Source: Alphaproteobacteria bacterium LSUCC0684
GTDB lineage: Bacteria; Pseudomonadota; Alphaproteobacteria; Puniceispirillales; UBA1172
Direction of reading: 5' to 3'
Assembly (NCBI GenBank): GCA_041228335.1
Contig: CP166130.1
Coordinates: 610,638-674,637 of the forward strand
DNA: 64,000 bases
Both the position numbers and the translations under genes were made by a program. Under the pieces are notes generated by a model. That model saw only the letters and a list, made by a program, of their open reading frames with translations. It was not told where the DNA came from and ran no database searches. Numbering within the stretch: the stretch's first letter is position 1; the number at the start of each line of letters is the position of its first letter. Shown in pieces: positions 655 through 13,861 of this stretch.

Positions 655-1086
655 ATGACAATTTCAACTGAGTTTGAAACCATAATTGTATGTAAACCAA
701 TTTTGGAACTGCGTTTTAAAGGTGGTTGGAAAACTTGGTTAAAGAAATTTTCTATGGAAGATGATGGAGAACTTTCTCGGATATCTGCCATGAGTGGGCA
801 TGATATTTCTTATTTAGAAAAGAAAATACAAAAATTAGGTTTACTTCCGCCTAATATTTCTGAGGATAAGTTTCATTATCGAGATTACTTTATTTATTCT
901 TTGGAATATAAACCGCACAGATTACGTGGCTTCCAGTCATTCACTATTCCTGATTGGTTGATATGGAATGAACCGTTAATGAATAAGATGTCACTTTTTG
1001 AAATAGTTAAACTTCCATTAGATTCATTAAAAACTCACCCTGCAAGACCAACATTTGACTTCAACAAAAAGGCTGTAATTAGATGA
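655..1086 (+). CDS. hypothetical island protein, 143 aa
   Basis: Not recognised. It encodes a 143-residue soluble protein with no signal peptide or membrane segment and several aromatic residues (WKTWLKKF near residue 25; a Tyr-rich stretch around residues 80-90). A second ATG at 651 is out of frame, so 655 is taken as the start. AT-rich composition matches its neighbours. It begins 11 bp after the upstream gene and its stop overlaps the start of the following gene by four bases (ATGA), so the three genes appear translationally coupled. Confidence 0.6.
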   Translation: MTISTEFETIIVCKPILELRFKGGWKTWLKKFSMEDDGELSRISAMSGHDISYLEKKIQKLGLLPPNISEDKFHYRDYFIYSLEYKPHRLRGFQSFTIPDWLIWNEPLMNKMSLFEIVKLPLDSLKTHPARPTFDFNKKAVIR

Positions 1087-1313
1087 TTTATACATTTGAC
1101 TGGAAAGATGTAATCCATGGAAAGATAGAAATTGAAGCCCAAAATGGCCATGAAGCAGAAAAGATTTTTAATAATATGGGCTTGATTGAGAGGTTGTCTG
1201 CATCCGAAGTAGATTGTGACAATAATACTTTAGTTATTAAATTTGTAGATGCTGGCATTGGTGACTTGCATACAAGAGAAGAATGGGAAGAAGAAGTAAG
1301 AAACTATACTTGA
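1083..1313 (+). CDS. hypothetical small acidic island protein, 76 aa
   Basis: Not recognised. The ATG at 1083 overlaps the TGA of the preceding gene, typical of translational coupling. The product is small and acidic, ends in a Glu-rich tail (REEWEEEVRNYT), and has no membrane segment. Its coupling to the upstream 143-aa protein suggests the two act together, for example as partners in a complex; this is inference only. Confidence 0.55.
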   Translation: MIYTFDWKDVIHGKIEIEAQNGHEAEKIFNNMGLIERLSASEVDCDNNTLVIKFVDAGIGDLHTREEWEEEVRNYT

Positions 1314-1725
1314 TGAAACACCCCTATATTTCTCCACCAAACTTCCACTGATATTTATATATACAAACTGATACCATTTCTTTGGGTGGGGGTGTCACTA
1401 ACCAGCCCTTAAAATCCCCAGCAAATTGGCTAAGGGATTCCTTACCACTCAGACATGCTCTCAATCGCCATATAAGATTCATACAGGCCGTTTGGGTTAT
1501 TCAGAATCCCAATCACACACAAGTATACAAAGCCCGTCAGCGGCGCTGGAGATTCCATTAAACACACATCGGGGTATCAGGGGTGTATGTGTCTTCTGTT
1601 TGTCACTTATTGACGCACAAATTGACGTACAAAATGTGCCTGTTGACACAACCAAAGAAGATAATAACACTAAGGAATTACTGACTTTTCAGTCTGGTTG
1701 TGTTCCTGACAGGGGTGTCACCATC
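1314..1725. other. non-coding end of island with short repeats
   Basis: No convincing gene. A 108-codon open frame at 1426-1752 has no plausible start signal, low-complexity composition, and runs into the inverted repeat, so it is not called. The stretch contains the 9-bp repeats at 1610-1650 and an 11-bp sequence (GACTTTTCAGT, 1683-1693) that is repeated inverted at 1756-1766 and directly at 3797-3807 inside the two 72-bp repeat copies. It is best read as attachment-site DNA of the integrase. Confidence 0.5.
1610..1650 (+). repeat. direct 9-bp repeats, candidate integrase arm-type sites (left)
   Basis: TTGACGCAC (1610-1618) and TTGACGTAC (1622-1630) are spaced 12 bp start to start, with a weaker TTGACACA at 1643-1650. 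The same motif pair with the same 12-bp period occurs on the minus strand at 3751-3771. Paired short direct repeats flanking a core are what tyrosine-integrase arm-type binding sites look like; binding is inferred. Confidence 0.45.
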
Positions 1726-1797
1726 CTCCGCCAGCACCACCTCACCATGTAAGTAACTGAAAAGTCTGTATTATTTATATTGACTGCTCAGGTGACG
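1726..1797 (+). repeat. 72-bp inverted repeat, left copy
   Basis: By reading, this is the exact reverse complement of 3766-3837. Its first 14 nt (CTCCGCCAGCACCA) equal the 3' end of tRNA-Thr including CCA, and its last 27 nt encode the final eight codons and stop of the nuclease-like gene. The first mismatch on the outer side is at 1725 versus 3838, within the position of the tRNA T-arm. Confidence 0.9.
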
Positions 1798-2610
1798 CAC
1801 TAGTTTCTTTACATATTCGAATGTGAGAAGTTTATCCTTGGCATTTTCCATGTAATCACTTTTTTTGTCAGATGCATGTATGTCATCTTTCAAAATATCA
1901 CTAATCATTTTCATCAGTGCATTCTGGATAGAGTTATCTAGAGGTGTAGATGAATAATTATTGAATTTTTCATTCAAGATTTTAATCATGTCTTCCGTGT
2001 TTGAAGCAGAAAGACTATGTTTAACCATCATAGGAATTGCCAATTTAAGGGCTTCACTGATTATTTGATTATCTCTACCGGTTATATCCTTGCTAACGAT
2101 GTTATCTTGATAAATACCTATTAAATCAGTGATTTCTCTTCCCAAATTACCTGTTTTTATTTCTTTATTATTTTGTAAATCGCTAATTATATCACCTATA
2201 AAAATAGTATTGATATGCTTCTTGATTTCCAGAAGTTCTTCTTGGTGTCTTACAACTCCATGAACAAGGCAAAACTCCCAATTAACATCTTCAGTTTCAC
2301 CATAAAGATTACTTCTCATTAATGATTTCTTGTCTGATTTAAACTTTTTTTCTATCCACTCTTCCGTTGAAATGACCAACTCATCCAGAGTTCTTTTTTT
2401 TGCGCTGTTGTTTCCAGTTATGTAAGCAACAGGATTATAAGAAACTTGGACTTCGTAATGCACGTATTTGGGTGAAGAGTTTTTAGATTGAATACCTAAT
2501 AAATCTATCTCATCAACACCTTTCTTTAGACCTCTTATTGTAAAGAAACCTTTTGAGTTCAACCATTCTTCCACCAATGTTTCTGCTATTAATCCCAAGT
2601 GACACTCCAT
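1771..2610 (-). CDS. putative PD-(D/E)XK-type nuclease linked to integrase
   Basis: A 279-residue soluble protein whose N-terminal third has the layout of a restriction-endonuclease-like core: an acidic helix (Glu14/Glu15), then GVDEIDLLGI with Asp36, then HYEVQVS with Glu53-x-Gln55 where the family usually has E-x-K (Gln variants are known). The C-terminal 150 residues are Lys/Ile/Asn-rich and not recognised. The gene starts 6 bp after the integrase stop on the same strand, so the two form an operon. Its last eight codons and stop lie inside the 72-bp inverted repeat, suggesting that the repeat replaced or trimmed the original C-terminus. Nuclease activity is a fold-level inference, not established. 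Confidence 0.65.
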   Translation of the reverse strand: MECHLGLIAETLVEEWLNSKGFFTIRGLKKGVDEIDLLGIQSKNSSPKYVHYEVQVSYNPVAYITGNNSAKKRTLDELVISTEEWIEKKFKSDKKSLMRSNLYGETEDVNWEFCLVHGVVRHQEELLEIKKHINTIFIGDIISDLQNNKEIKTGNLGREITDLIGIYQDNIVSKDITGRDNQIISEALKLAIPMMVKHSLSASNTEDMIKILNEKFNNYSSTPLDNSIQNALMKMISDILKDDIHASDKKSDYMENAKDKLLTFEYVKKLVRHLSSQYK

Positions 2611-2616
2611 TTTGTA

Positions 2617-3762
2617 TTAGTTGGAAATCATGGCTAACCATCTAAATTTTATTTCATTTGGAAATCCAATTCCATAAGTTTGTCCAACACCTTCTGTTGT
2701 CCATCCACCAATGGCGTCAATGATGTCTGAAGGACACTCTACAGCCCTTAGCCTATCTCTTAATCCATGACGTAATCCATGGATGACATACTCTTTACCA
2801 ATAACTGTCTTTATCCATTTGTTTAATGCTGCACTGGCTGAGTTGGAGTTTGTGTTAGTTCCATCACAGTATTTAGGAAAAGCAAACACTGTATGATGTT
2901 TAACTACTTGTTGTGCTGCCCATAAAGACACACCAACCAAGGGAACAGTTCTTTTACTGCTCTTTGTCTTTAACCTTCTCCAAGGATGTGGCTGTATGAT
3001 TAGGTGAGGGATGTCTGTGTCCAATTGTATGTCATCTAAATGAAGACCAACTGCTTCTGCTAATCTCATTCCTGTGTCTGACAGAAGAGCAACAAGCCAT
3101 CTCAATTGGTCATTCTTATCAACACAAGCGTCTTGCAGGGTGACAAGGGTTGTATCCACGATTGGTAGTCGTTTGTTTTCTTCCTGCTCACCCTGATGCA
3201 AGTACACATTAGCAAAGGCATTGCTTCCTTCTATGCCCATCTCTCTCATAACAAGATTGATAATGGAGCGAAGAGAACCAAGGATACGTTTGACACTCCC
3301 AAGGCTAAGGTCTTTTTTGAATAGTTTATCTCTAAAGGATGCCGCATCAGCAGAAGAGTAAGCAGTAATAGGTTTATTGCCCAATGCCTTTACCAGATAC
3401 TTGGTGTTTCTTTTTACAGCACGAACAAAGGTTGGATTACTGTTCCTCTTTATTCGGAGATAAATATCTGCTGCTTCAAGAATGGTAGGGCTTGAATGTT
3501 CATTCTCTTTTCTATCCTCAACAAGCAGATGCAAGGCAGGAACATCCATCTCCTTCAATCTCAATCCTAACCAATAGTCATCAAGTCTTTGATTGATGGA
3601 ACTTGCTGTTCTTAAAGCATGGTTATGAGAACGTGTCTTCAGGCTAAGGCTAACCCTGTCTGACTTGTAATATTGCTGTAAGTCTGAAGGAACACGTCTG
3701 ACAAAGTGATAGATACCTTGTCTAATACGGAGATGAGAAGAGGAGTTTTTGTACGTCAACAT
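2617..3762 (-). CDS. tyrosine-type site-specific integrase
   Basis: A 381-residue phage/island integrase. The N-terminus (GIYHFVRRVPSDLQQYY) resembles the small N-terminal domain that precedes the SAM-like core-binding domain in many alphaproteobacterial island integrases. Catalytic-domain motifs appear in order: Arg in DTGMRLAEAVGL, Lys in KSSKRTVPL, His/Arg in HGLRHGLRD, IGGW, and the nucleophile Tyr in GQTYGIGFP near the C-terminus. A longer frame from a TTG at 3783 exists, but the ATG at 3762 has AGGTGA five bases upstream and fits the family, so it is preferred. That ribosome-binding site lies inside the right 72-bp repeat. It likely recombines at the tRNA-Thr 3' end. Confidence 0.92.
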   Translation of the reverse strand: MLTYKNSSSHLRIRQGIYHFVRRVPSDLQQYYKSDRVSLSLKTRSHNHALRTASSINQRLDDYWLGLRLKEMDVPALHLLVEDRKENEHSSPTILEAADIYLRIKRNSNPTFVRAVKRNTKYLVKALGNKPITAYSSADAASFRDKLFKKDLSLGSVKRILGSLRSIINLVMREMGIEGSNAFANVYLHQGEQEENKRLPIVDTTLVTLQDACVDKNDQLRWLVALLSDTGMRLAEAVGLHLDDIQLDTDIPHLIIQPHPWRRLKTKSSKRTVPLVGVSLWAAQQVVKHHTVFAFPKYCDGTNTNSNSASAALNKWIKTVIGKEYVIHGLRHGLRDRLRAVECPSDIIDAIGGWTTEGVGQTYGIGFPNEIKFRWLAMISN

Positions 3763-3771
3763 GTACGTCAC
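3751..3771 (-). repeat. paired 9-bp repeats, candidate arm-type sites (right)
   Basis: On the minus strand GTGACGTAC (3771-3763) and TTGACGTAC (3759-3751) sit 12 bp apart, matching the spacing of the left pair at 1610-1630. They overlap the integrase start codon, so integrase binding here could also repress its own gene. Confidence 0.4.
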
Positions 3772-3837
3772 CTGAGCAGTCAATATAAATAATACAGACT
3801 TTTCAGTTACTTACATGGTGAGGTGGTGCTGGCGGAG
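3766..3837 (-). repeat. 72-bp inverted repeat, right copy
   Basis: Perfect reverse complement of 1726-1797. It spans the last 14 nt of tRNA-Thr (3824-3837), the tRNA-integrase spacer and the integrase ribosome-binding site. The AT-rich part beyond the tRNA probably carries the integrase promoter. Confidence 0.9.
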
Positions 3838-3899
3838 AGACTCGAACTCCCAACCGCCCGATTACAAATCGGGTGCTCTACCAATTGAGCCACGCCAGC
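3824..3899 (-). tRNA. tRNA-Thr(UGU)
   Basis: On the minus strand a full cloverleaf is readable: 7-bp acceptor stem GCTGGCG/CGCCAGC, D-arm GGCTCAATTGGTAGAGC, anticodon stem-loop CCCGATTTGTAATCGGG with anticodon TGT (Thr), T-arm with TTCGAGT, discriminator A and encoded CCA. The 3' 14 nt are part of the 72-bp inverted repeat, so this tRNA is the apparent attachment site of the island. Confidence 0.96.
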
Positions 3900-4105: not shown

Positions 4106-4543
4106 ATGGAGCTACATCCACGTGATCCCGACTTCGAGGAAAAAGCCCGTTCAAGTTTCGCCGCCCAGACCGTGATGAAGACGCTGGGCATGTCGATGGA
4201 TCAAATCGAGCCGGGCCGGGCCGTGATCTCGCTTTTCCGGAATGAACGTCTCTTCCAGCAGCAGAAATTCATCCATGGCGGCGTGCTGGCAGCCGGCCTT
4301 GACAGTGCCTGCGGCTATTCCGCCCTGAGCCTGGCTGAAAAGGGGCTTGAGGTGATGACCGTCGAATTCAAGACAAGCTTCATCGCCCCGGCAGGTCAGG
4401 AGAAGATTATTTTCACCGGCCGCGTCATCAAGCCGGGGCGCCGGGTCATTTTTACCGAAGGCACAGCCCATGGTCTTGATGATGACCGGATGATCCTCAT
4501 TGCCACCATGACCGCCACCATGACTTATGTCGAGCTTGGGTGA
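4106..4543 (+). CDS. PaaI-family hotdog thioesterase
   Basis: A 145-residue single hotdog-fold protein, the usual length for the PaaI/YiiD-like acyl-CoA thioesterases. The helix motif HGGVLAAGLDSACGYSAL (about residues 58-75) supplies the typical HGG and Asp that position the thioester, and VEFKTSFIAP is the following strand. It probably hydrolyses an acyl- or aryl-CoA released by the neighbouring acyl-CoA pathways, but the substrate cannot be read from sequence. AGGAGAGA precedes the ATG. Its 3' end overlaps the convergent AbrB-like gene by 19 bp. Confidence 0.85.
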   Translation: MELHPRDPDFEEKARSSFAAQTVMKTLGMSMDQIEPGRAVISLFRNERLFQQQKFIHGGVLAAGLDSACGYSALSLAEKGLEVMTVEFKTSFIAPAGQEKIIFTGRVIKPGRRVIFTEGTAHGLDDDRMILIATMTATMTYVELG

Positions 4544-5628
4544 TGCTGTCTTTTCAGCCATGTCGCCAGCACCGGCATGGTGAGGAAGATCAGAAATACC
4601 CGCACCATATGATGAAAGGCGATAAAGGCGATATCAAAGCCGAAGATCAGCGCCAGCAGCGTCACTTCGTAGAGGCCGCCCGGAACAAAGGCAAGCCAGA
4701 TCGAAAGAAAACCTGCATGGGTGAAATGGGCGATGCCCAGCGCTGCCAGCAGATACGCAAGAAGGATGATCCCGCTTGTGAGCAATCCATCGCGAAGGTA
4801 GACAAGAAGTGAGCTTAATTCAACCTGGGCAAGTCTGGCGCCAACCCCGCCGCCTATTGCCAGCTGGGCCAGCATGATGAATTCGTGAATACGGGGGATA
4901 AACACAAACCCGGTGATATGAAACGCCATGCTAAGCCCCATCGGGCCGAGCAGATGAGGCATGGGAAGGCGCAGGAACCGCGCAATCCCGTAGCCTGCAA
5001 TGGCAAGGCTGATAAAGGCAAGTATCTGCCCGGAGGTGAGATCAAGGATCCCCGGCATGTTGAGAAGTCTTTGATTGGAGACCGCCACCGCCTCACCCCC
5101 CTCAAGTACGGCCAGGAGAAGAGGGGTGCTGAAGAAAATGACCGCAACACGGATCAGGTGGAAAAGCGCCACAACATAATCCTTGTCCACCATCTCTCTT
5201 GCCATGACGAGGGCTTCGGCCTGCCCGCCGGGAACAGAACACAGCAGGGCCATCACCGGATCATACCCCCTGATCCTGCGCAGAAACCCATAGCCGAGGA
5301 TGGAGACCAGAAGTGTGACAGCGATCATGATGCTCACGGTGGTCATCCAGTGGCTTGCCTGTTCGATCATGGCTGAGGTGAAATTCGCACCAATAAACAC
5401 CCCGAGGCCAAGAACAACCGGGACATGAAACCATCTTGGCACGCCAAGCTCAGGCCTGATCGAGGGAAATATCCCGCCGATGATCCAGACCCCAAAGAGA
5501 CTGCCCATGAGGAACGGCGCAGGTAGAGCCATGTAGAGGAAACCATATCCCGCCAGAAGTGCAATCGTGAAGGTGATCACCATTCGGCGGAAATCCGAAA
5601 AAATCCCGGCAAGTTCAGAAGATTTCAT
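4525..5628 (-). CDS. AbrB-family membrane protein (putative transporter/regulator)
   Basis: A 367-residue polytopic protein with about nine to ten hydrophobic segments and an internal two-fold repeat: the GxxxP-rich block around FLMGSLFGVWIIGG is echoed by MPHLLGPMGLSMAFHITG in the second half. This is the pattern of the AbrB duplication family (often labelled ammonia monooxygenase-like, a misnomer, since these are integral membrane proteins of poorly known function). It lies at the 3' end of the leucine-degradation run, 41 bp after the hydratase gene, so it may be co-transcribed; a role in substrate uptake or efflux is only a guess. Confidence 0.75.
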   Translation of the reverse strand: MKSSELAGIFSDFRRMVITFTIALLAGYGFLYMALPAPFLMGSLFGVWIIGGIFPSIRPELGVPRWFHVPVVLGLGVFIGANFTSAMIEQASHWMTTVSIMIAVTLLVSILGYGFLRRIRGYDPVMALLCSVPGGQAEALVMAREMVDKDYVVALFHLIRVAVIFFSTPLLLAVLEGGEAVAVSNQRLLNMPGILDLTSGQILAFISLAIAGYGIARFLRLPMPHLLGPMGLSMAFHITGFVFIPRIHEFIMLAQLAIGGGVGARLAQVELSSLLVYLRDGLLTSGIILLAYLLAALGIAHFTHAGFLSIWLAFVPGGLYEVTLLALIFGFDIAFIAFHHMVRVFLIFLTMPVLATWLKRQHHPSST

Positions 5629-5669
5629 GGAGATACGGGACCGCTACCCTGCAAGACGATGTTGTTAAA

Positions 5670-6458
5670 CTATTCCGGCCTTATCCAAGGTGGATCCTGG
5701 CGGGCGAAAAAGGCGCTGATGCCAGCCCTGGTCTCCGGGCTTTCCCAGCAGTCCGCAAGTACGGTGACCGCCTGGTCGATATCCTTTTCAAGATTGCCGC
5801 CTTCCTGGGCGAGGATCAGGGCCTTTGCCCGTGCCATGGCATCAGGTGAGGCTTTCAGAATCATTTCAACCTCACGGGAAATGGCTTCATCGAGTTGATC
5901 AATGGGGAGAGATTGTGAAACAAGCCCCAGTTTCTCCGCCCTTGCGGTATCCATGACGCTGCCGGTGATAAAGACCGACCGTGCCTTGCCATGGCCTATC
6001 CGGCGCAGGACAAAGGGCCCGATGGTTGCCGGGATGAGCCCGAGGCGGGTTTCGGTCAGCGCAAAGCGCAGGCCGGTTGCCGCAATAACGATATCCGAAA
6101 TTGCCATCAGCCCGAGCCCGCCGCCATAGGCATTACCCTGAACACGCGCAATCACCGGAACGGGAAGGGTGTAGAACGCGGCCAGCATGTCAGCGAGCAT
6201 CCGCGCCTGATGGATCTTTTCCTCCCTGCTGGCGTTGATCTGGGCTTGCATCCAGCCAAGGTCACCGCCGGCGCAGAAACTCGGGCCGGATGACTGAAGA
6301 AGAACGGCCCGGGTTCCCGGATTGTCGCGCGCCTGACTTGCCGCTTCTGCCAATGCGCTGATCATCGCCTGATCCATTGCGTGATGCTTGTCGGGCCGGT
6401 TGAGGGTAATGATCAGAAGCCCGCTTTCGTGAAGATCGGTCAGGATGGGTTCAGCCAT
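5670..6458 (-). CDS. liuC: enoyl-CoA hydratase, probably methylglutaconyl-CoA hydratase
   Basis: A 262-residue crotonase-fold protein. FCAGGDLGWMQ and the GNAYGGGLGLM loop form the oxyanion hole, and Glu in LTETRLGLIPATIGP is the catalytic acid/base seen in true hydratases. The WMQ sequence after the first loop is typical of the methylglutaconyl-CoA hydratase branch. It would hydrate 3-methylglutaconyl-CoA to HMG-CoA, between the carboxylase and the lyase of leucine breakdown. Its start overlaps the stop of the HMG-CoA lyase gene by 8 bp, which supports that assignment. Confidence 0.88.
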   Translation of the reverse strand: MAEPILTDLHESGLLIITLNRPDKHHAMDQAMISALAEAASQARDNPGTRAVLLQSSGPSFCAGGDLGWMQAQINASREEKIHQARMLADMLAAFYTLPVPVIARVQGNAYGGGLGLMAISDIVIAATGLRFALTETRLGLIPATIGPFVLRRIGHGKARSVFITGSVMDTARAEKLGLVSQSLPIDQLDEAISREVEMILKASPDAMARAKALILAQEGGNLEKDIDQAVTVLADCWESPETRAGISAFFARQDPPWIRPE

Positions 6459-7332
6459 TGCCGTTGTCCTTGTCTTTTACCCCGAGGGTCCGGATAAATG
6501 CTTCGATTTCAGCCAGTATGGTCAGGTCAAGTCCGGTTGACCAGCCGATATTTTCAAGATGCCGGGCCAGCGCAAGGGTTGAGACATTGCCCTTGGCCCC
6601 GGGGGCATAGGGGCATCCACCAAGCCCGCCCACGGCGCTGTCAAAGCGGCGTAATCCATATTCAAGAGAGATGTCGATATTCGCGAATGCCTGGTTGCCG
6701 GTATCGTGATAGTGGCCGGCTAGACAAGACACCCCTGTTCTGGGGATGACGCAATCCAGCATGGCGGCGATGCGGTGAGGCGTGCCTGCCCCGATAGTAT
6801 CGCCAAGAGAGATTTCATAGCAACCCATATCAAGAAGGGTTTCGGCGACATCCGCCACCGTTTCGGGCAATGTATCCCCGTCATAGGGGCAGGCGATCAC
6901 GCAGGAGATATAGCCGCGGACCGGGATATTGTGCTCAGCGGCGGCACGGGTCACCGGATAAAAACGATCGAGGCTTTCGGCGATGGAACAGTTGATGTTT
7001 TTCTGGCTGAAACCTTCGGAAGCGGCCCCGAAAATAGCGACTTCATCCGCGCCTGCGGCAAGGGCATCCTCAACGCCGCGGAGATTCGGGGTCAGCACCG
7101 CATAACGGAGATTTTCCTTACGCTTTATTCCGGCCATGACGGCGGCGGCATCGGCCATCTGCGGCACCCATTTCGGGGAGACAAAACTGGTCACCTCGAT
7201 CCGGGAAAAACCGGCCTCGCTGAGGCGGTCAACAAGGCGGATCTTGTCTTCGGTGCGGATGAAAAGCGGCTCGTTCTGCAGGCCATCACGGGGGCCTACC
7301 TCAACCAGTTCCACCTTTCCACCTATCGTCAT
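6451..7332 (-). CDS. liuE: hydroxymethylglutaryl-CoA lyase
   Basis: A 293-residue TIM-barrel lyase splitting HMG-CoA into acetyl-CoA and acetoacetate. The N-terminal VEVGPRDGLQNEP contains the catalytic Arg-Asp pair; GHYHDTGNQA provides the metal-binding histidines; and GGCPYAPGAKGNVST carries the signature active-site cysteine. The length is normal for bacterial enzymes (about 300). The start overlaps the stop of the biotin-carboxylase subunit gene by four bases, so this is a translationally coupled leucine-catabolic operon. Confidence 0.96.
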   Translation of the reverse strand: MTIGGKVELVEVGPRDGLQNEPLFIRTEDKIRLVDRLSEAGFSRIEVTSFVSPKWVPQMADAAAVMAGIKRKENLRYAVLTPNLRGVEDALAAGADEVAIFGAASEGFSQKNINCSIAESLDRFYPVTRAAAEHNIPVRGYISCVIACPYDGDTLPETVADVAETLLDMGCYEISLGDTIGAGTPHRIAAMLDCVIPRTGVSCLAGHYHDTGNQAFANIDISLEYGLRRFDSAVGGLGGCPYAPGAKGNVSTLALARHLENIGWSTGLDLTILAEIEAFIRTLGVKDKDNGNG

Positions 7333-9275
7333 GTTGTTTCCTTGAACGTGATCAGCACCTGGCTGTCCGCGACCGTATCACCAACCGCGCCGGTGACTTC
7401 ATCTATTACCCCATCCCGCGGGGCGGTCAGGATATGTTCCATCTTCATGGCCTCAAGCGCAATGAGCGCATCGCCGCTGGATACATGGTCGCCGGGCTTG
7501 ACCGAGATGTGCCGGATCACGCCTGTCATCGGCGCGGTAACCTGACCTGCGTTCGGGCCCTCTCCTTGCTGATCAAGCCTGTCAATACGGGCAAAACACC
7601 AGATTTCACCGGCGAGATTGAAACTGACATGGCCGGGGCTGATTTCCGCCTCGACCTGCTGGCCATCCATCTTCAGCATATTCGGACCGGGCTGAATATC
7701 CTGAAAGGTGACGGGCCCTTCAGGGGTTGCAACCATCATGCCGCCATCATCAAGCGGTGTCAGTCGGCAGGGCAGGGTGTTCTCCCCGTAACGAAGAGCC
7801 AGATGGCTTGCCCCGGCGCCCCAGTGCCGCCAGCCGCAACGCGCCGTCCTCGATGTGAGGCCTGATGCTAGAAGCGCGGCAATCGCAATGATCTGAGGAG
7901 AAGGGCCAGGTGAAGAAAGCAGATCATCGCTCCGGTCAATCCAGCTGGTATCGATCCGCATGGCCGAAACATCCGGATGCCGACACAGCCGGCTGAGGAA
8001 GCCGAGATTGGTCGTCAGCCCATGGACATGAGTGCGGTTGAGCGCCGCGTCAAGCCGGGCAAGGGCAGATAAGCGTGTATCTTCATGGCTGATGATCTTG
8101 GCCACCATCGGATCGTAATAGGCTGAAACGCTGTCGCCATCCTCAATCGCGCTATCTGCCCGCACGCTGCGGTGAAAGACAATCCGCTCAACCCGCCCGG
8201 GGCTTGGCAGGAAGTTGCGGGCCGGATCCTCGGCATAAAGGCGGGCCTCAATGGCGTGCCCGTTCAGGGTGATCTCCTCCTGGCGGCGGGGCAGAGGCTC
8301 ACCTGAAGCAACGCGAAGCTGCCATTCGACAAGATCAATACCGGTCACGGCCTCGGTGACCGGATGCTCGACCTGAAGCCGGGTGTTCATTTCCATGAAC
8401 CAGAAACCGTCCGGTTTCAGCCCGTCTGTTCCGTCGGCGATGAACTCAACCGTCCCGGCGCCGATATATCCGATGGCGCTGGCCGCGGTGATGGCGGTAT
8501 CGGTCATCGCTTTACGCGTTGCGGCATCAATCCCCGGGGCGGGGGTTTCCTCAAGAACTTTCTGGTGCCGGCGTTGCAGGGTGCAATCCCGCTCAAAGAG
8601 ATGGACGGTCTCACCATGGCTGTCGGCAAAGATCTGGACTTCGACATGCCGGGGACTTTCGATGGCTTTTTCAAGCAGAACCTGATCGTCACCAAAACTG
8701 GCGGCAGATTCGCGCCGGGTTGCGGCGAGGGCTGAGGCGAAATCCTCCGGCCCTGCAACATGCCGCATGCCTTTGCCGCCCCCACCGGCGCGGGCCTTGA
8801 TAAAGACGGGATAGCCGATCCGTGCTGCCTCGGCCTCAAGTCGCTCAAGGCTCTGGTCATCGCCATGGTAGCCCGGAACGGTGGGAACACCTGCATCAGC
8901 CATCAGTGACTTGGCGGCATCTTTCAGCCCCATTGCCCTTATGGCCGATGCTGGCGGGCCGACAAAGATCAGCCCTGCTGCCGTAACGGCATCGACGAAA
9001 TCAGCATTTTCGGAAAGAAATCCATAGCCGGGATGAACGGCATCGGCACCGCTCTCCCTTGCCGCGTTGAGGATTGCGCTGATGGAAAGATAGCTTTCCC
9101 TTGATGGCGGCGGGCCGATCCGTATTGCCTGATCCGCAAGCCGGACATGCCGGGCCGCACGATCCGCATCCGAATAGACCGCGACGCATTCGATCCCCAT
9201 CCGCCGGGCCGTGGCGATGATCCGGCAGGCGATCTCTCCCCGATTGGCGATGAGCAGGCGCTTGATCATGATCAC
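7329..9275 (-). CDS. liuD: 3-methylcrotonyl-CoA carboxylase, biotin-containing alpha subunit
   Basis: A 648-residue subunit with an N-terminal biotin carboxylase ([16 protein letters not shown] start, ATP-grasp glycine loop GGGGKGMR at about residues 163-170, [15 protein letters not shown] catalytic block) and a C-terminal biotinyl domain with EAMKMEH; the biotin-accepting Lys is about residue 611. It carboxylates 3-methylcrotonyl-CoA together with the adjacent beta subunit. Its start overlaps the beta-subunit stop (ATGA). The pairing with isovaleryl-CoA dehydrogenase and HMG-CoA lyase argues for methylcrotonyl- rather than propionyl- or geranyl-CoA carboxylase. Confidence 0.95.
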
Positions 9276-10876
9276 ATCCGGAAAACAGGGAAGACGGTAT
9301 CCGCAACCGGTGCATTTGCCGCCGCCTGCAAGGACAAGGCCAGAACATCCCGCGTGCGGACGGGATCGATTATTCCGTCATCCCACAGCCGTGCCGAGGC
9401 ATAAAGCGGGTCGGACTGGCGGTCGAACTGCTCAAGGACAGGTGACTTGATCGCGGCTTCGTCTTCATCGGACCAGCTCTCACCCCGGGCCTCGATCGCG
9501 CTTCGTTTCACCCGGGCCAGGACACCGGCGGCCTGTTCGCCGCCCATCACCGCGATCCGGGCATTCGGCCACATCCACAGAAAGCGAGGGCCAAAGGCAC
9601 GGCCGCACATGCCGTAATTCCCGGCCCCGTAAGAGCCGCCGATGATGACCGTGATCTTGGGGACACTGGCGCAGCTGACCGCGGCGACAAGTTTGGCGCC
9701 ATGCTTGGCGATACCTTCAGCCTCGTATTTCGAGCCGACCATGAAGCCGGTGATGTTCTGCAGAAAGACCAGCGGGATTTTCCGCTGGCAGCAAAGTTCG
9801 ATGAAATGCGCACCCTTGGTTGAACTTTCCGAGAACAACACCCCGTTATTGGCAATGATCCCGATCAGCCTGCCATCGATCCGGGCAAAACCGCAGACAA
9901 GGGTGGTGCCGTACACCGCCTTGAATTCATCAAAATCCGAACCATCCACAATGCGGGCGATGACTTCGCGAATATCAAACGGTTTGCGGGAATCCGCCGG
10001 GATGATGGCCATGAGATCTTCGGGGTCAAGTTTGGGCGGCACCGGGGGGTTTTCAGGCTGGCGGCGCCCGGCCATGCCGAGATTGCGGATACACTGGCGG
10101 GCCAGCGCGAGCGCGTGGGTATCGTTTTCAGCCAGCATATCGGCAACGCCGGAAAGCCGGGCATGGGTATCTCCGCCACCAAGCGTTTCGGCATCCACCT
10201 CCTCACCGGTGGCCTGTTTCACCAGCGGCGGGCCGGCAAGAAAGATCGTTCCCTGATTGCGGACAATGATGGTCTGGTCGCTCATGGCCGGCACATAGGC
10301 GCCGCCGGCGGTGCAGGAGCCCATGACCACGGCGATCTGCGGGATACCCTTCGCGCTCATCCGTGCCTGATTGTAGAAGATCCGGCCGAAGTGATCGCGA
10401 TCAGGGAAGACTTCATCCTGATTTGGCAGATTGGCGCCGCCGCTATCCACCAGATAGATGCAGGGCAGGCGGTTTTCTTCGGCGATTTCCTGGGCCCGGA
10501 GATGTTTTTTTACCGTCAAGGCATAATAGGTGCCGCCTTTTACCGTGGCATCGTTTGAGACAATCATGCAATCCCGGCCTTCGACCGTGCCGATGCCGGC
10601 AATCATGCCGCCTGCGGGGATGGCTTCATCATAGACTTCATGGGCAGCAAAAAGACCGATTTCAAGGAAAGGGGAGCCGGGATCAAGAAGCGTGTCTATC
10701 CTGTCTCTCGGTAAAAGCTTGCCTCGCTTGAGATGGCGTTCGCGCGATTTTTCCGGCCCGCCAAGACAGATGACCTCGGCCAGTGCCTTGATGCGATCTA
10801 CCTTCGCTTCCATGGCGGCCCGGTTCCCAGCGGCTTCCTCGCTATGTGGATCGAAGGAGGATTTCAGTTCGGTCAT
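9272..10876 (-). CDS. liuB: 3-methylcrotonyl-CoA carboxylase, carboxyltransferase beta subunit
   Basis: A 534-residue acyl-CoA carboxyltransferase with two crotonase-like halves. Visible features are [19 protein letters not shown] near the N-terminus, [17 protein letters not shown] and [17 protein letters not shown] in the first half, and [16 protein letters not shown] and [16 protein letters not shown] in the second; the last block and the overall length match methylcrotonyl-CoA carboxylases. It starts 12 bp after isovaleryl-CoA dehydrogenase and overlaps the alpha subunit by four bases. Confidence 0.96.
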
Positions 10877-10888
10877 GGCGATATTCTG

Positions 10889-12052
10889 TCAGGCGGTTTC
10901 AGCAAAAAGTTCACGGCCGATGAGCATTCGGCGGATTTCAGACGTGCCCGCCCCGATCTCATAGAGTTTGGCATCCCTCAGCAGGCGTCCGGTAGCGTAA
11001 TCGTTGATATAGCCGTTGCCGCCAAGGCACTGGATGGCCTCAAGCGCAATCTGGGTTGCCTTTTCCGCCGCATAGAGGATGCAGCCGGCTGAATCCTTTC
11101 GTGTTGTCTCGCCGCGATCACAGGCAGCCGCGACTGCATAGACATAGGCCCGGCAGGCGTTCATGGTGGTATACATATCCGCCAGCTTCCCCTGCATCAG
11201 CTGAAACGTGCCGATGGCCTGGCCGAACTGTTCGCGTTCATGAACATAGGGCATGACGATATCCATCGCCGCCGCCATGATGCCGATTGGACCTGCGGCC
11301 AGCACAACACGTTCATAATCAAGCCCTGACATGAGAACATGGACGCCTTTGCCTTCTTCGCCTAGTATATTTTCAAAAGGCACTTCGCAATCCTCGAAGA
11401 TCAGCTCGGCGGTATTCGATCCACGCATGCCAAGCTTGTCGAGTTTGGCGCCGCTGGAAAACCCGGCCATATCACGTTCGATCAGAAAGGCCGTAATGCC
11501 CTTGGGGCCTCTCTCCATATCTGTCTTGGCATAGACAACAAGCGTGCTGGCATCGGGGCCATTGGTGATCCACATCTTGTTGCCGTTGAGCACAAAGCGG
11601 TCGTTGCGTTTTTCCGCCCTGAGTTTCATGGACACAACGTCGGAGCCGGCGCCGGGTTCGGACATGGCAAGCGAGCCGACATGCTCCCCGCTGATGAGCC
11701 CGGGGAGATATCTTGCCTTTTGTTCCGGCGTGCCCCAGCGCGCGATCTGGTTGATGCAGAGATTGGAATGTGCGCCGTAGGACAGCCCGACCGAGGCGCT
11801 GGCCCGGCTGATTTCCTCAACGGCAATACAATGGGCGAGATATCCCATGGCGCTGCCGCCATCCTGTTCCGGCACGGTTATGCCATGCAGCCCGAGCGCC
11901 CCCATCTTCTGCCAGAGATCAGGCGGGAAGCTGTTGTCCTTGTCGATCTGCTCCGCCCTCGGGGCGATTTCATCCTGGGCAAAACGGTGGACCACCTGCC
12001 TCAAGGCGTCGATCTCTTCCCCAAGGTGAAAATTCATGCTGGCATGGAACAT
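10889..12052 (-). CDS. liuA: isovaleryl-CoA dehydrogenase
   Basis: A 387-residue FAD-dependent acyl-CoA dehydrogenase oxidising isovaleryl-CoA to 3-methylcrotonyl-Co[13 protein letters not shown] and [10 protein letters not shown] are the FAD/substrate loops. The catalytic base is placed as in isovaleryl-CoA dehydrogenases: [13 protein letters not shown] (about residue 245) carries the Glu, while the position used by most other family members (near GTSEIRR at the C-terminus) has Gly-Ala. This residue swap, plus the adjacent carboxylase genes, makes the substrate call strong. It is the first core liu gene after a 96-bp gap from the upstream synthetase gene. Confidence 0.96.
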
Positions 12053-12148: not shown

Positions 12149-13861
12149 CTATTGATCCTCAAGGCCAAGCTCGTCGATCATTTCGGTACGCATGATGAAT
12201 TTCTGGGGTTTGCCGGTAACCGTCATGGGCATCGAGCGGCGAAAGCGAATATGCCGGGGGATTTTGTAATGGGCGATCTGCCCCTCGCACCAGCGGCGAA
12301 TGGACGCCTCATCTTCGTCCTTGTCTTCATAAAGGATGATATAGGCGCAAAGCTCTTCGCCATATTTCGCATCCGGCACGCCGAAAACCTGCACCTGCTG
12401 GATGGACGGGTGGGTGTAGAGAAACTCCTCCACTTCCCTCGGGTAGATGTTCTCCCCGCCCCGGATCACCATATCCTTCACCCGGCCAACAATGCGGCAG
12501 TATCCATTCTCATCAAGGGTGGCGAGATCACCTGTATGCATCCAGCCTTCGCTGTCAATGGCGGCGGCGGTCTGGTCTTCCTCGCCCCAGTATCCCTGCA
12601 TGACCGAATATCCGAGGGTCAGCAGTTCACCTTTTTCACCTATCGGCACCACTTTGCCATCCTGATCGACGATACGGACCGTTGTATGGGGATGGATCCG
12701 CCCAACGGTCGACACCCTTAAGTCAATCGGATCATCGGGATGAGACTGGAAGGAAACCGGACTTGTCTCGGTCATCCCGTAGGCGATGGTAATCTCGTTG
12801 AGATGCATCTTTCCCATGACCCGCCGCATCACTTCCATCGGGCAGGGCGCGCCTGCCATGATGCCGGTGCGGAGAGAGGAAAGATCAAAACGGGAAAATT
12901 CCGGATGATCCAGCATGGCAAGGAACATGGTCGGCACGCTGTAAAGCGCCGCGCAGCGCTCCGCTGACACCGCCGATAAAGTCATCAGCGGATCGAAGGC
13001 TTCGGCCGGAAAGACCATGAAGGCCCCCCGGGTGACGCAGGCAAGAGACCCCATCACCATGCCGAAACAGTGATAGAGCGGCACCGGAATGCACAGCCCT
13101 TCGCCGGTCTGAAGACGCATCCGCTCAACGGTGAAGCGGGCGTTGTTCACGATGTTCCGGTGGGTGAGGGTTGCGCCTTTGGGGGCGCCGGTGGTGCCGC
13201 TGGTAAACTGGATATTGATGGGATCATCAGGGTTGAGCGAGGCGGATATCTCCTCAACCTTCTGGCAGAGCGCATCGGTTGCCCGCGCCATCAGGTCACG
13301 GGTATTCATCATTCCGGGGGTGTTCTGATCTCCCATCCGGATGCAGATACCAAGCGCCGGAAGCCGCGCGGATTCGAGCATCCCGGGGGTGCTCCCAACA
13401 AGTTCAGGGGCAAGATCGGTGATCATGCCAATATAATCCGAGGTCTTGAATTCCGGTGCCAGCATCAGGGCCTTTGCGCCGGTCTTGTTGAGGACATATT
13501 CGACTTCTGCCCGGCGGTAGGCCGGATTAATCGTTACCAGAACCGCGCCGATCCTTGCCGTTGCAAATTGCAACGCCACCCATTCCCAGCGATTGGGTGA
13601 CCATATGCCGACCCTGTCGCCGCGTTCAATCCCTACCGAGAGTAGCCCTGCCGCCATGTCGCGGGTGATGCGGTCAAGATCATCGTAGCTCCACCGGATG
13701 CCGCTTTCATGAAAGACGGCGGCGATATCGGATCCATGGGTGCGGACAGTTTCGGCGAGAACTTCGGGGATTGTTTTCTCCCATATCGGCTGGTCAACAG
13801 GGCCCGATACCAATGACAGCCCGTTCTGTGGCTTCAGCCTGTCTTCAAACCTGTGCATCAT
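12149..13861 (-). CDS. acyl-CoA synthetase (AMP-forming), ACSF2-like
   Basis: A 570-residue ANL-superfamily ligase. The P-loop-like motif FTSGTTGAPKGATLTHRN (about residues 205-222), YGMTETSP, TGDLATLDENGYCRIVGR and the C-terminal GKPQKFIMR with the catalytic lysine are all present, so it should be active. The family activates medium- or branched-chain fatty acids, and in leucine clusters such enzymes are often thought to activate acetoacetate or branched acids; the substrate is not determined here. It sits 8 bp from the SDR gene and is transcribed toward liuA. Confidence 0.88.
   Translation of the reverse strand: MMHRFEDRLKPQNGLSLVSGPVDQPIWEKTIPEVLAETVRTHGSDIAAVFHESGIRWSYDDLDRITRDMAAGLLSVGIERGDRVGIWSPNRWEWVALQFATARIGAVLVTINPAYRRAEVEYVLNKTGAKALMLAPEFKTSDYIGMITDLAPELVGSTPGMLESARLPALGICIRMGDQNTPGMMNTRDLMARATDALCQKVEEISASLNPDDPINIQFTSGTTGAPKGATLTHRNIVNNARFTVERMRLQTGEGLCIPVPLYHCFGMVMGSLACVTRGAFMVFPAEAFDPLMTLSAVSAERCAALYSVPTMFLAMLDHPEFSRFDLSSLRTGIMAGAPCPMEVMRRVMGKMHLNEITIAYGMTETSPVSFQSHPDDPIDLRVSTVGRIHPHTTVRIVDQDGKVVPIGEKGELLTLGYSVMQGYWGEEDQTAAAIDSEGWMHTGDLATLDENGYCRIVGRVKDMVIRGGENIYPREVEEFLYTHPSIQQVQVFGVPDAKYGEELCAYIILYEDKDEDEASIRRWCEGQIAHYKIPRHIRFRRSMPMTVTGKPQKFIMRTEMIDELGLEDQ

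Follow-up and report, generated by a model that had tools for sequence, protein, structure and literature searches.

A second, inverted attachment site in tRNA-integrated elements of Alphaproteobacteria

In the genome of Alphaproteobacteria bacterium LSUCC0684, a tyrosine recombinase gene (int) and a predicted nuclease gene stand next to a tRNA-Thr gene, enclosed by two inverted copies of a 72-nucleotide (nt) sequence, one of which contains the end of the tRNA. Why would an integrase lie between inverted, rather than direct, copies of its integration target? Here, we analyzed this locus within a stretch of 64,000 nt (the window, G000:C1:610638-674637, part of the genome's single contig of 2,704,644 bases) and compared it with related integrase loci. 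The 72-nt repeat is the inner portion of a larger design, a 6.7-kb element with a second attachment site in inverted orientation. On balance, we favor the reading that the cargo would change its orientation relative to the integrase module when the inverted sites recombine, with the element's own integrase as the most likely agent.

Layout of the element at tRNA-Thr

Window positions 1726-1797 and 3766-3837 are reverse complements over 72 nt with 0 mismatches (80 nt with 3 mismatches), a match so far above chance that the repeat is real. The right copy begins in the final 14 nt of tRNA-Thr and stops just short of an ATG of int, and the left copy terminates within the 3' end of the nuclease gene. 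A preliminary description of the locus had reported this exact repeat, with the last 14 nt of the tRNA in one copy, and was accurate in this respect. It had also taken the tRNA end to be repeated in inverted rather than direct orientation. The inverted copy stands, but an ordinary direct repeat is present as well: the left flank, which the same description had singled out as the place to look for one, holds a third core copy in direct orientation at G000:C1:607767, 2.9 kb to the left of the window start (5767-5780 versus 12461-12474 in the coordinates of L011, the window element).

A second inverted repeat connects window positions 1335-1739 with G000:C1:607767-608171 (405 nt, no mismatch). 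On the tRNA strand, the element (6,708 bp, with a G+C content of 35% versus 57 to 59% in its surroundings) reads tRNA-core-N-int-nuclease-N'-core'-F'-cargo-F-core, N being the arm on the integrase side, F the arm at the far end, and N' and F' their inverted copies. The middle site joins F and N about a core and is attP-like, resembling the attachment site of an excised circle, but it is inverted. As read from the integrated form, the inverted F-core-N copies are exact over 405 + 72 - 14 = 463 nt. This architecture of three cores and both inverted arm pairs is firmly established. In window coordinates, the features are the following (ORF, open reading frame; aa, amino acids).

3824..3899, minus strand: tRNA-Thr (TGT), the integration target (ARAGORN), with the core of site 1 at its 3' end
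3824..3837, minus strand: core of site 1 (attL-like: tRNA-core-N)
3766..3837, minus strand: N arm, core plus leader as far as the int start; 72-nt exact inverted repeat with 1726-1797
3751..3772, minus strand: int-side pair of predicted arm-type sites (3751-3760 and 3763-3772), with a 12-bp period, at the int start; GGTGACGTAC / GTTGACGTAC
2617..3783, minus strand: tyrosine recombinase (int), 388 aa, TTG at 3783 (ATG at 3762), with DUF6538 and Phage_integrase domains
1771..2610, minus strand: accessory gene in the int module, encoding a predicted nuclease of PD-(D/E)xK type whose C-terminus falls within N'
1726..1797, plus strand: N' arm of site 2, the inverted middle site, with only part of one int-side arm-type site (one mismatch)
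1726..1739, plus strand: core of site 2, inverted versus sites 1 and 3
1335..1739, plus strand: F' arm of site 2, 405 nt identical, in inverted orientation, to the far end of the element
1609..1630, plus strand: tandem pair of predicted arm-type sites in F', with 1609-1618 at 117 nt and 1621-1630 at 105 nt from the core
1083..1313, plus strand: cargo ORF, 76 aa, no clear family
655..1086, plus strand: cargo ORF, 143 aa, no family; homolog in element L075
1..643, plus strand: cargo ORF, 238 aa, start outside the window; sub-threshold resemblance to uracil-DNA glycosylase (E value of 0.17)

Occurrence of the inverted site

Related integrases (E value of 1e-50) are encoded in at least 74 of the 136 genomes of the order and in 10 of 385 genomes of a sample of the class, five of which are outside the order. 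At least 101 full-length matches were found in the order, 94 of which were examined; the scored set comprises 110 integrase genes at 106 loci, 107 of them distinct after three duplicates were dropped (the partial-integrase loci L023 and L026 were left out). The inverted N repeat is present at 70 of these 107 distinct integrase loci, with a length of 53 to 121 nt and an identity of 90 to 100% (42 are perfect). Given this recurrence, a single aberrant integration event, one of the origins considered in the preliminary description, was rejected. Counted as lacking the repeat were L072 and all loci with repeats shorter than 50 nt, longer than 130 nt or less than 88% identical, 37 in total, 18 of them on contigs that end less than 2.5 kb after int. 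Where a target is in view, it is tRNA-Leu, Arg, Thr, Gly, Phe, Asn or, in one case, SeC, and at 54 of the 70 repeat-bearing loci the tRNA lies no more than 400 nt upstream of int.

Fourteen elements of 4.1 to 15.5 kb were scored as complete, i.e., with N, F and a third core (the cores of L141_1 match poorly), and L085 and L115 became complete after extension (ca. 18 kb each). A minimal two-gene mobile unit or transposon, another of the early proposals, was rejected in view of the direct repeat at the far end, which makes the unit one of 6.7 kb, and of the empty sites of a relative. In 8 of 40 congeners, the joined flanks of L108 (tRNA-Gly) match one uninterrupted stretch at 91 to 95% identity, and in six more they do so at 71 to 72%; the whole three-core element is absent from them as one piece and therefore entered as one piece.

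The same genome contains a second element with this layout, at tRNA-Asn (G000:C1:1232303-1243038; L012 from 6303, and L021), whose integrase is 43% identical to that of the window element. Its N arm measures ca. 80 nt (95% identity), its F arm 246 nt (98.8%), and the third core is direct. Its int module also carries a Rieske ring-hydroxylase gene together with an additional integrase, present as a fragment, and its cargo includes Prim-Pol and AAA_25 proteins as well as, by eye, an insertion sequence-like transposase. The megaplasmid of Ruegeria sp. TM1040, a finished record, carries an element of the same layout at tRNA-Phe, with an N of 85 nt and an F of 1,148 nt, both exact. Its F arm holds a BRO-family gene, which the annotation lists twice under one protein accession, once in each inverted arm (L158, NC_008043.1, 13478-14053 and 23822-24397). 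By our own reading of the sequence, the right flank of this element apparently contains a P4-type integrase, and the site may be a stacked hotspot. This was also the only match among plasmid records, and a scan of genome contigs gave one partial locus. A phage origin was rejected, as there was no match in 50,697 phage records at an E value of 1e-20 and no relative among viral contigs.

Given that many draft contigs end beside the repeats (28 of the 70 have less than 1 kb after site 2) and that the contig of L072 is a 2.3-kb palindrome, the layout might be suspected to be an artefact of assembly or amplification. We give this explanation practically no credence: the same layout, with element-specific sequence, is found in the single-contig genomes G000, G089 and G094 and in the finished Ruegeria record, which rules it out for the family as a whole. 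As for L072 itself (G014:C47), the contig ends are inverted copies that include tRNA-Leu, and it is either an assembly artefact produced via the N repeat or the trace of a flipped junction.

Other loci show further variants. L068 and L073 are tandem elements, in which the next integrase lies at or beside the F-core end of the first. At tRNA-Phe, L070 (G089:C1:1438727-1458627) has an integrase of the same clade without the N repeat; two other perfect inverted repeats are present, one of 383 nt immediately after int and another, separate from it, of 931 nt. Short stretches in G000 (G000:C1:2352261-2352380, 2359567-2359632, 2038406-2038597 and 923011-923220), remnants of related integrases and, at 2359567, an N-arm-like sequence (86%), are probably decayed elements.

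The design was seen in one group of integrases. In the same genomes, the N repeat was found in none of 14 arm-domain integrases (PF13356; 16 matches, two of which were below the cut-off and left out), two of the 14 being cut off by contig ends within ca. 1 kb. Among 20 DUF6538 integrase loci hand-picked across the phylum, three have the repeat, and their length between domain start and stop is 372 to 381 aa; the 17 without it have 384 to 591 aa. Phylogenetically, the repeat-bearing integrases fall into one clade (FastTree support of 0.947, rooted on L208) of 98 leaves, 67 with the repeat, 18 cut off and 13 without, with pairwise identities down to 38%.

Orientation of integrase and cargo

The preliminary description had proposed a freely flipping int-nuclease segment, i.e., a self-inverting switch. 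However, int points away from the tRNA in all 54 repeat-bearing elements with a tRNA in view (0 of 54 flipped; the other 16 have no tRNA in view, and L072, being ambiguous, was not counted), and this candidate was rejected. The more general idea in that description, that of an inverted attachment site with recombination between its copies, is borne out by our analysis. The int-nuclease segment is not a free switch as judged from these comparisons, and the part that changes orientation is the cargo half, which lies mostly beyond the segment then described.

Nine cargo pairs, hand-picked mostly for opposite gene orientation, were compared. In L085 and L115, with three cores each, a 7.47-kb cargo block (95.9% identity) has opposite orientations relative to int, accompanied by two shorter inverted blocks. 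A three-gene block is likewise reversed between M2 and L131, and shorter inverted matches connect the cargo of L074/L108, L095/L130, L067/L069 and L069/L167, while L126 and L131 have mainly the int module in common. A polymerase-like gene, some copies of which are fragments, is directed toward int in five elements (L011, L066, L073, L115 and L123) and away from it in another five (L074, L075, L085, L092 and L142).

The cargo is probably re-oriented either by the integrase acting at the cores or by RecA acting at the F arms. The second option leads to a rival explanation of the whole design, in which RecA-type homologous recombination and gene conversion would do everything and the second site, ignored by the integrase, would be an inherited by-product of an old duplication. 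It fits the observations that only the cargo flanked by F varies in orientation and that most F arms, with 138 to 1,148 nt in complete elements, are long enough for RecA; the cargo homology of L085 and L115 also ends in F and not at the core. We hold this explanation to be unlikely, although deserving to be taken seriously, mainly on the evidence of clade restriction given above (the design is maintained within one integrase clade at identities as low as 38%, with no case seen beyond that clade) and of the arms described below.

Attachment arms

Arm sites were analyzed where site 2 is followed by no less than 140 nt of sequence, i.e., in 54 elements. In F, there is a tandem pair of 10-mers with a 12-nt period, at a median distance of 116 nt from the core. 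The two 10-mers are alike in at least 7 of 10 positions in 49 of the 54 elements (9.2% of shuffles) and in at least 9 of 10 in 42 of them (0.2% of shuffles). A matching pair at the start of the integrase gene was recognized in 48 of the 54. We predict these repeats to be arm-type integrase sites. In those same 48 elements, N' contains none (23) or one (25) of the int-side pair, but never both. The middle site would, in that case, be an attP that lacks part of its int side, and this could account for the orientation of int, away from the tRNA wherever a tRNA is in view.

The two copies of N are nearly identical within each element, differing at 50 of 5,348 positions (66 of the 70 elements, those with arms of equal length). 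In comparisons between elements, 470 column differences are common to both N copies and 97 are not, although the pairs are not independent. Judged by these counts, the N arms are shown to evolve in concert. Such concerted identity of 90 to 100% in arms of merely 53 to 121 nt argues against the action of RecA alone. In F, identity extends outward from the core, a further point against that rival: in L085, the F arms are exact for 736 nt from the core and then drop to ca. 70% in a stretch that is still homologous. This would be the expected trace of core-anchored recombination with branch migration, and gene conversion by RecA is also possible.

Integrase module and cargo

The accessory gene of the window element is predicted to encode a PD-(D/E)xK-type nuclease. 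No Pfam family matched it; the best Foldseek match is MspJI (E value of 2.2e-4), and conserved residues support the assignment. The preliminary description had pointed to related genomes as a place where the same pair of genes might be flanked by inverted tRNA ends. The inverted repeat does surround int at the 70 loci; 23 of the 70 modules consist of int alone and keep N'. The remaining 47 have room for an accessory gene, and in 32 of them the main ORF (modules being annotated by mechanical ORF calls) runs from N' toward int, with its start no more than 50 nt from the inner edge of N' in 23 of the 32, as if N' were its leader.

This arrangement would suit an expression device, in which N' provides the accessory gene with the same leader as int and promoters in F-core-N drive both. 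We regard this role as highly improbable as an explanation of the design, considering that N' is maintained in modules without any accessory gene and that the main ORF runs in the opposite direction in 13 of the 47, the window element among them.

The geometry of the int module also bears on another possibility, a single-strand form in which the inverted attP copies pair into a double-stranded attP and the strand copy integrates directly, as in CTX-type phages. The elements do show what strand-specific entry predicts, a pair of attP-like copies in inverted orientation and a single orientation of integration, and there are precedents: in CTXphi, the two attP sites that pair are separated by 90 nt (PMC5357621), and the tyrosine-recombinase element Tn6283 forms strand-biased circles (PMC5991714). 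However, the gap between N and N' (the int-side loop) is 1,137 to 4,549 nt here, far from such close pairing. In addition, no relaxase or rolling-circle domain was detected with Pfam in the window element or in 20 proteins of five other elements, and folding alone leaves the cargo inversions unexplained. Overall, we find a single-strand form improbable.

Half of the complete elements (8 of 16) encode a polymerase-, primase- or helicase-type protein, polymerase-like in L011, L073, L085, L115 and L123 and primase-type in M2, L131 and L140. No replication-type protein is common to all 16, and no partition gene was recognized among the cargo proteins scanned. In the window element, the full-length 238-aa cargo ORF has no Pfam match (the resemblance listed above lies below the cut-off), and a known defence system was rejected, as none of the window's five proteins has a PADLOC match. 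To the right of the tRNA, the G+C-rich chromosome returns (window 4106-12052), with ORFs that, by eye, resemble a leucine-degradation cluster (acyl-CoA carboxylase, HMG-CoA lyase and acyl-CoA dehydrogenase).

Proposed mechanism

Use of the inverted sites by the integrase is, in our opinion, the likeliest mechanism. Recombination between sites 1 and 3 would excise a circle with two inverted attP-like sites (alike over 463 nt in the window element), which the integrase would then recombine with each other. Branch migration from the core would homogenize the arms, and the cargo would be flipped in the process. Only the int-side attP would retain both int-side arm-type sites, and re-integration would consequently always place int beside the tRNA.

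Several observations weigh against integrase-driven inversion. The circle and its inverted junctions are predictions from the integrated sequence, and the arm-type sites are predictions from repeated sequence rather than from binding; moreover, the int-side pair is unrecognized in 6 of the 54 elements, in four of which the best chance-level match falls within N'. Because similarity served to find the N arms, part of their identity reflects how they were selected. Loss or alteration of the second site occurs, given that 19 of the 107 loci have more than 2.5 kb of downstream sequence and no N repeat as defined (six of the 19 have a weaker, longer or shorter inverted repeat). Cargo is found in the same orientation in L074/L095 and L011/L075, and the comparison of L075 with L011 reveals gene-level shuffling rather than a clean module inversion. 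The cargo homology of L085 and L115 stops inside the F arm, so that particular exchange was not at the core. RecA could invert the cargo at the long F arms without any integrase, and its need for long arms would explain why the short-armed int module never flips. Finally, in a phage serine integrase, attP x attP recombination reaches less than 5% of attP x attB (PMC3556126), from which the reaction between inverted sites may be slow in these elements too.

Significance

In a full-text literature search, judged by titles and the beginnings of abstracts and with most subscription papers outside its reach, we found no description of this layout. It is a conserved, clade-specific attachment-site design. 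Island finders that rely on direct repeats would probably overlook it, and it may often cause short-read assemblies to break. Three questions become testable: why an integrative element retains an additional attP in inverted orientation, in what way the arms of attachment sites evolve together with the tRNA target, and, for marine bacteria, how a varied cargo, with restriction systems, transporters and replication genes among it, changes its orientation. The intact-looking copy in the finished genome of Ruegeria sp. TM1040 makes the mechanism directly testable. The benefit may be re-orientation of the cargo, copy-out or amplification, or single-strand entry.

Comparison with known systems

Tycheposons are also cargo islands at tRNA genes with a tyrosine recombinase, found in marine and freshwater bacteria; the accessible part of their description (PMC10872708) mentions no inverted internal attachment site. 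Tn6283 is similarly a non-conjugative element moved by tyrosine recombinases, and an unusual excision is conceivable here too, but it has two recombinase genes and the text available (PMC5991714) does not mention an inverted internal attP. CTXphi shares the two attP copies in inverted orientation, although it relies on the host XerCD (PMC5357621), unlike the elements described here, which have their own DUF6538 integrase, copies that are kilobases apart and arms with arm-type-like repeats.

Tyrosine-recombinase islands targeted to tRNA genes, such as P4-type islands and integrative and conjugative or mobilizable elements, have many traits in common with this family: an integrase beside the tRNA, a core formed by the tRNA 3' end, direct cores at the ends, cargo, tandem arrays and precise empty sites (shown here for L108). 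The difference lies in the third, inverted core, which, together with an F arm and an N leader, splits complete elements into an int and a cargo module.

The yeast 2-micron plasmid has two identical inverted repeats with the Flp target that separate two unique regions, one of which carries the recombinase. The circle proposed here would likewise have two identical inverted repeats bearing the recombinase target, with int in one of the regions, and about half of the complete elements carry a replication-type protein. A true bacterial counterpart, in which islands excise as two-attP circles, the integrase flips the cargo, the flip amplifies or copies out the element, and the one full-armed attP re-integrates beside the tRNA, seems doubtful to us, and we put it forward only tentatively. 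In contrast to the plasmid, the elements described here are integrated at tRNA genes and have no replication gene in common nor, among the cargo proteins scanned, a recognized partition gene, and their integrase half is found in one orientation only, whereas the cargo is seen both ways between elements.
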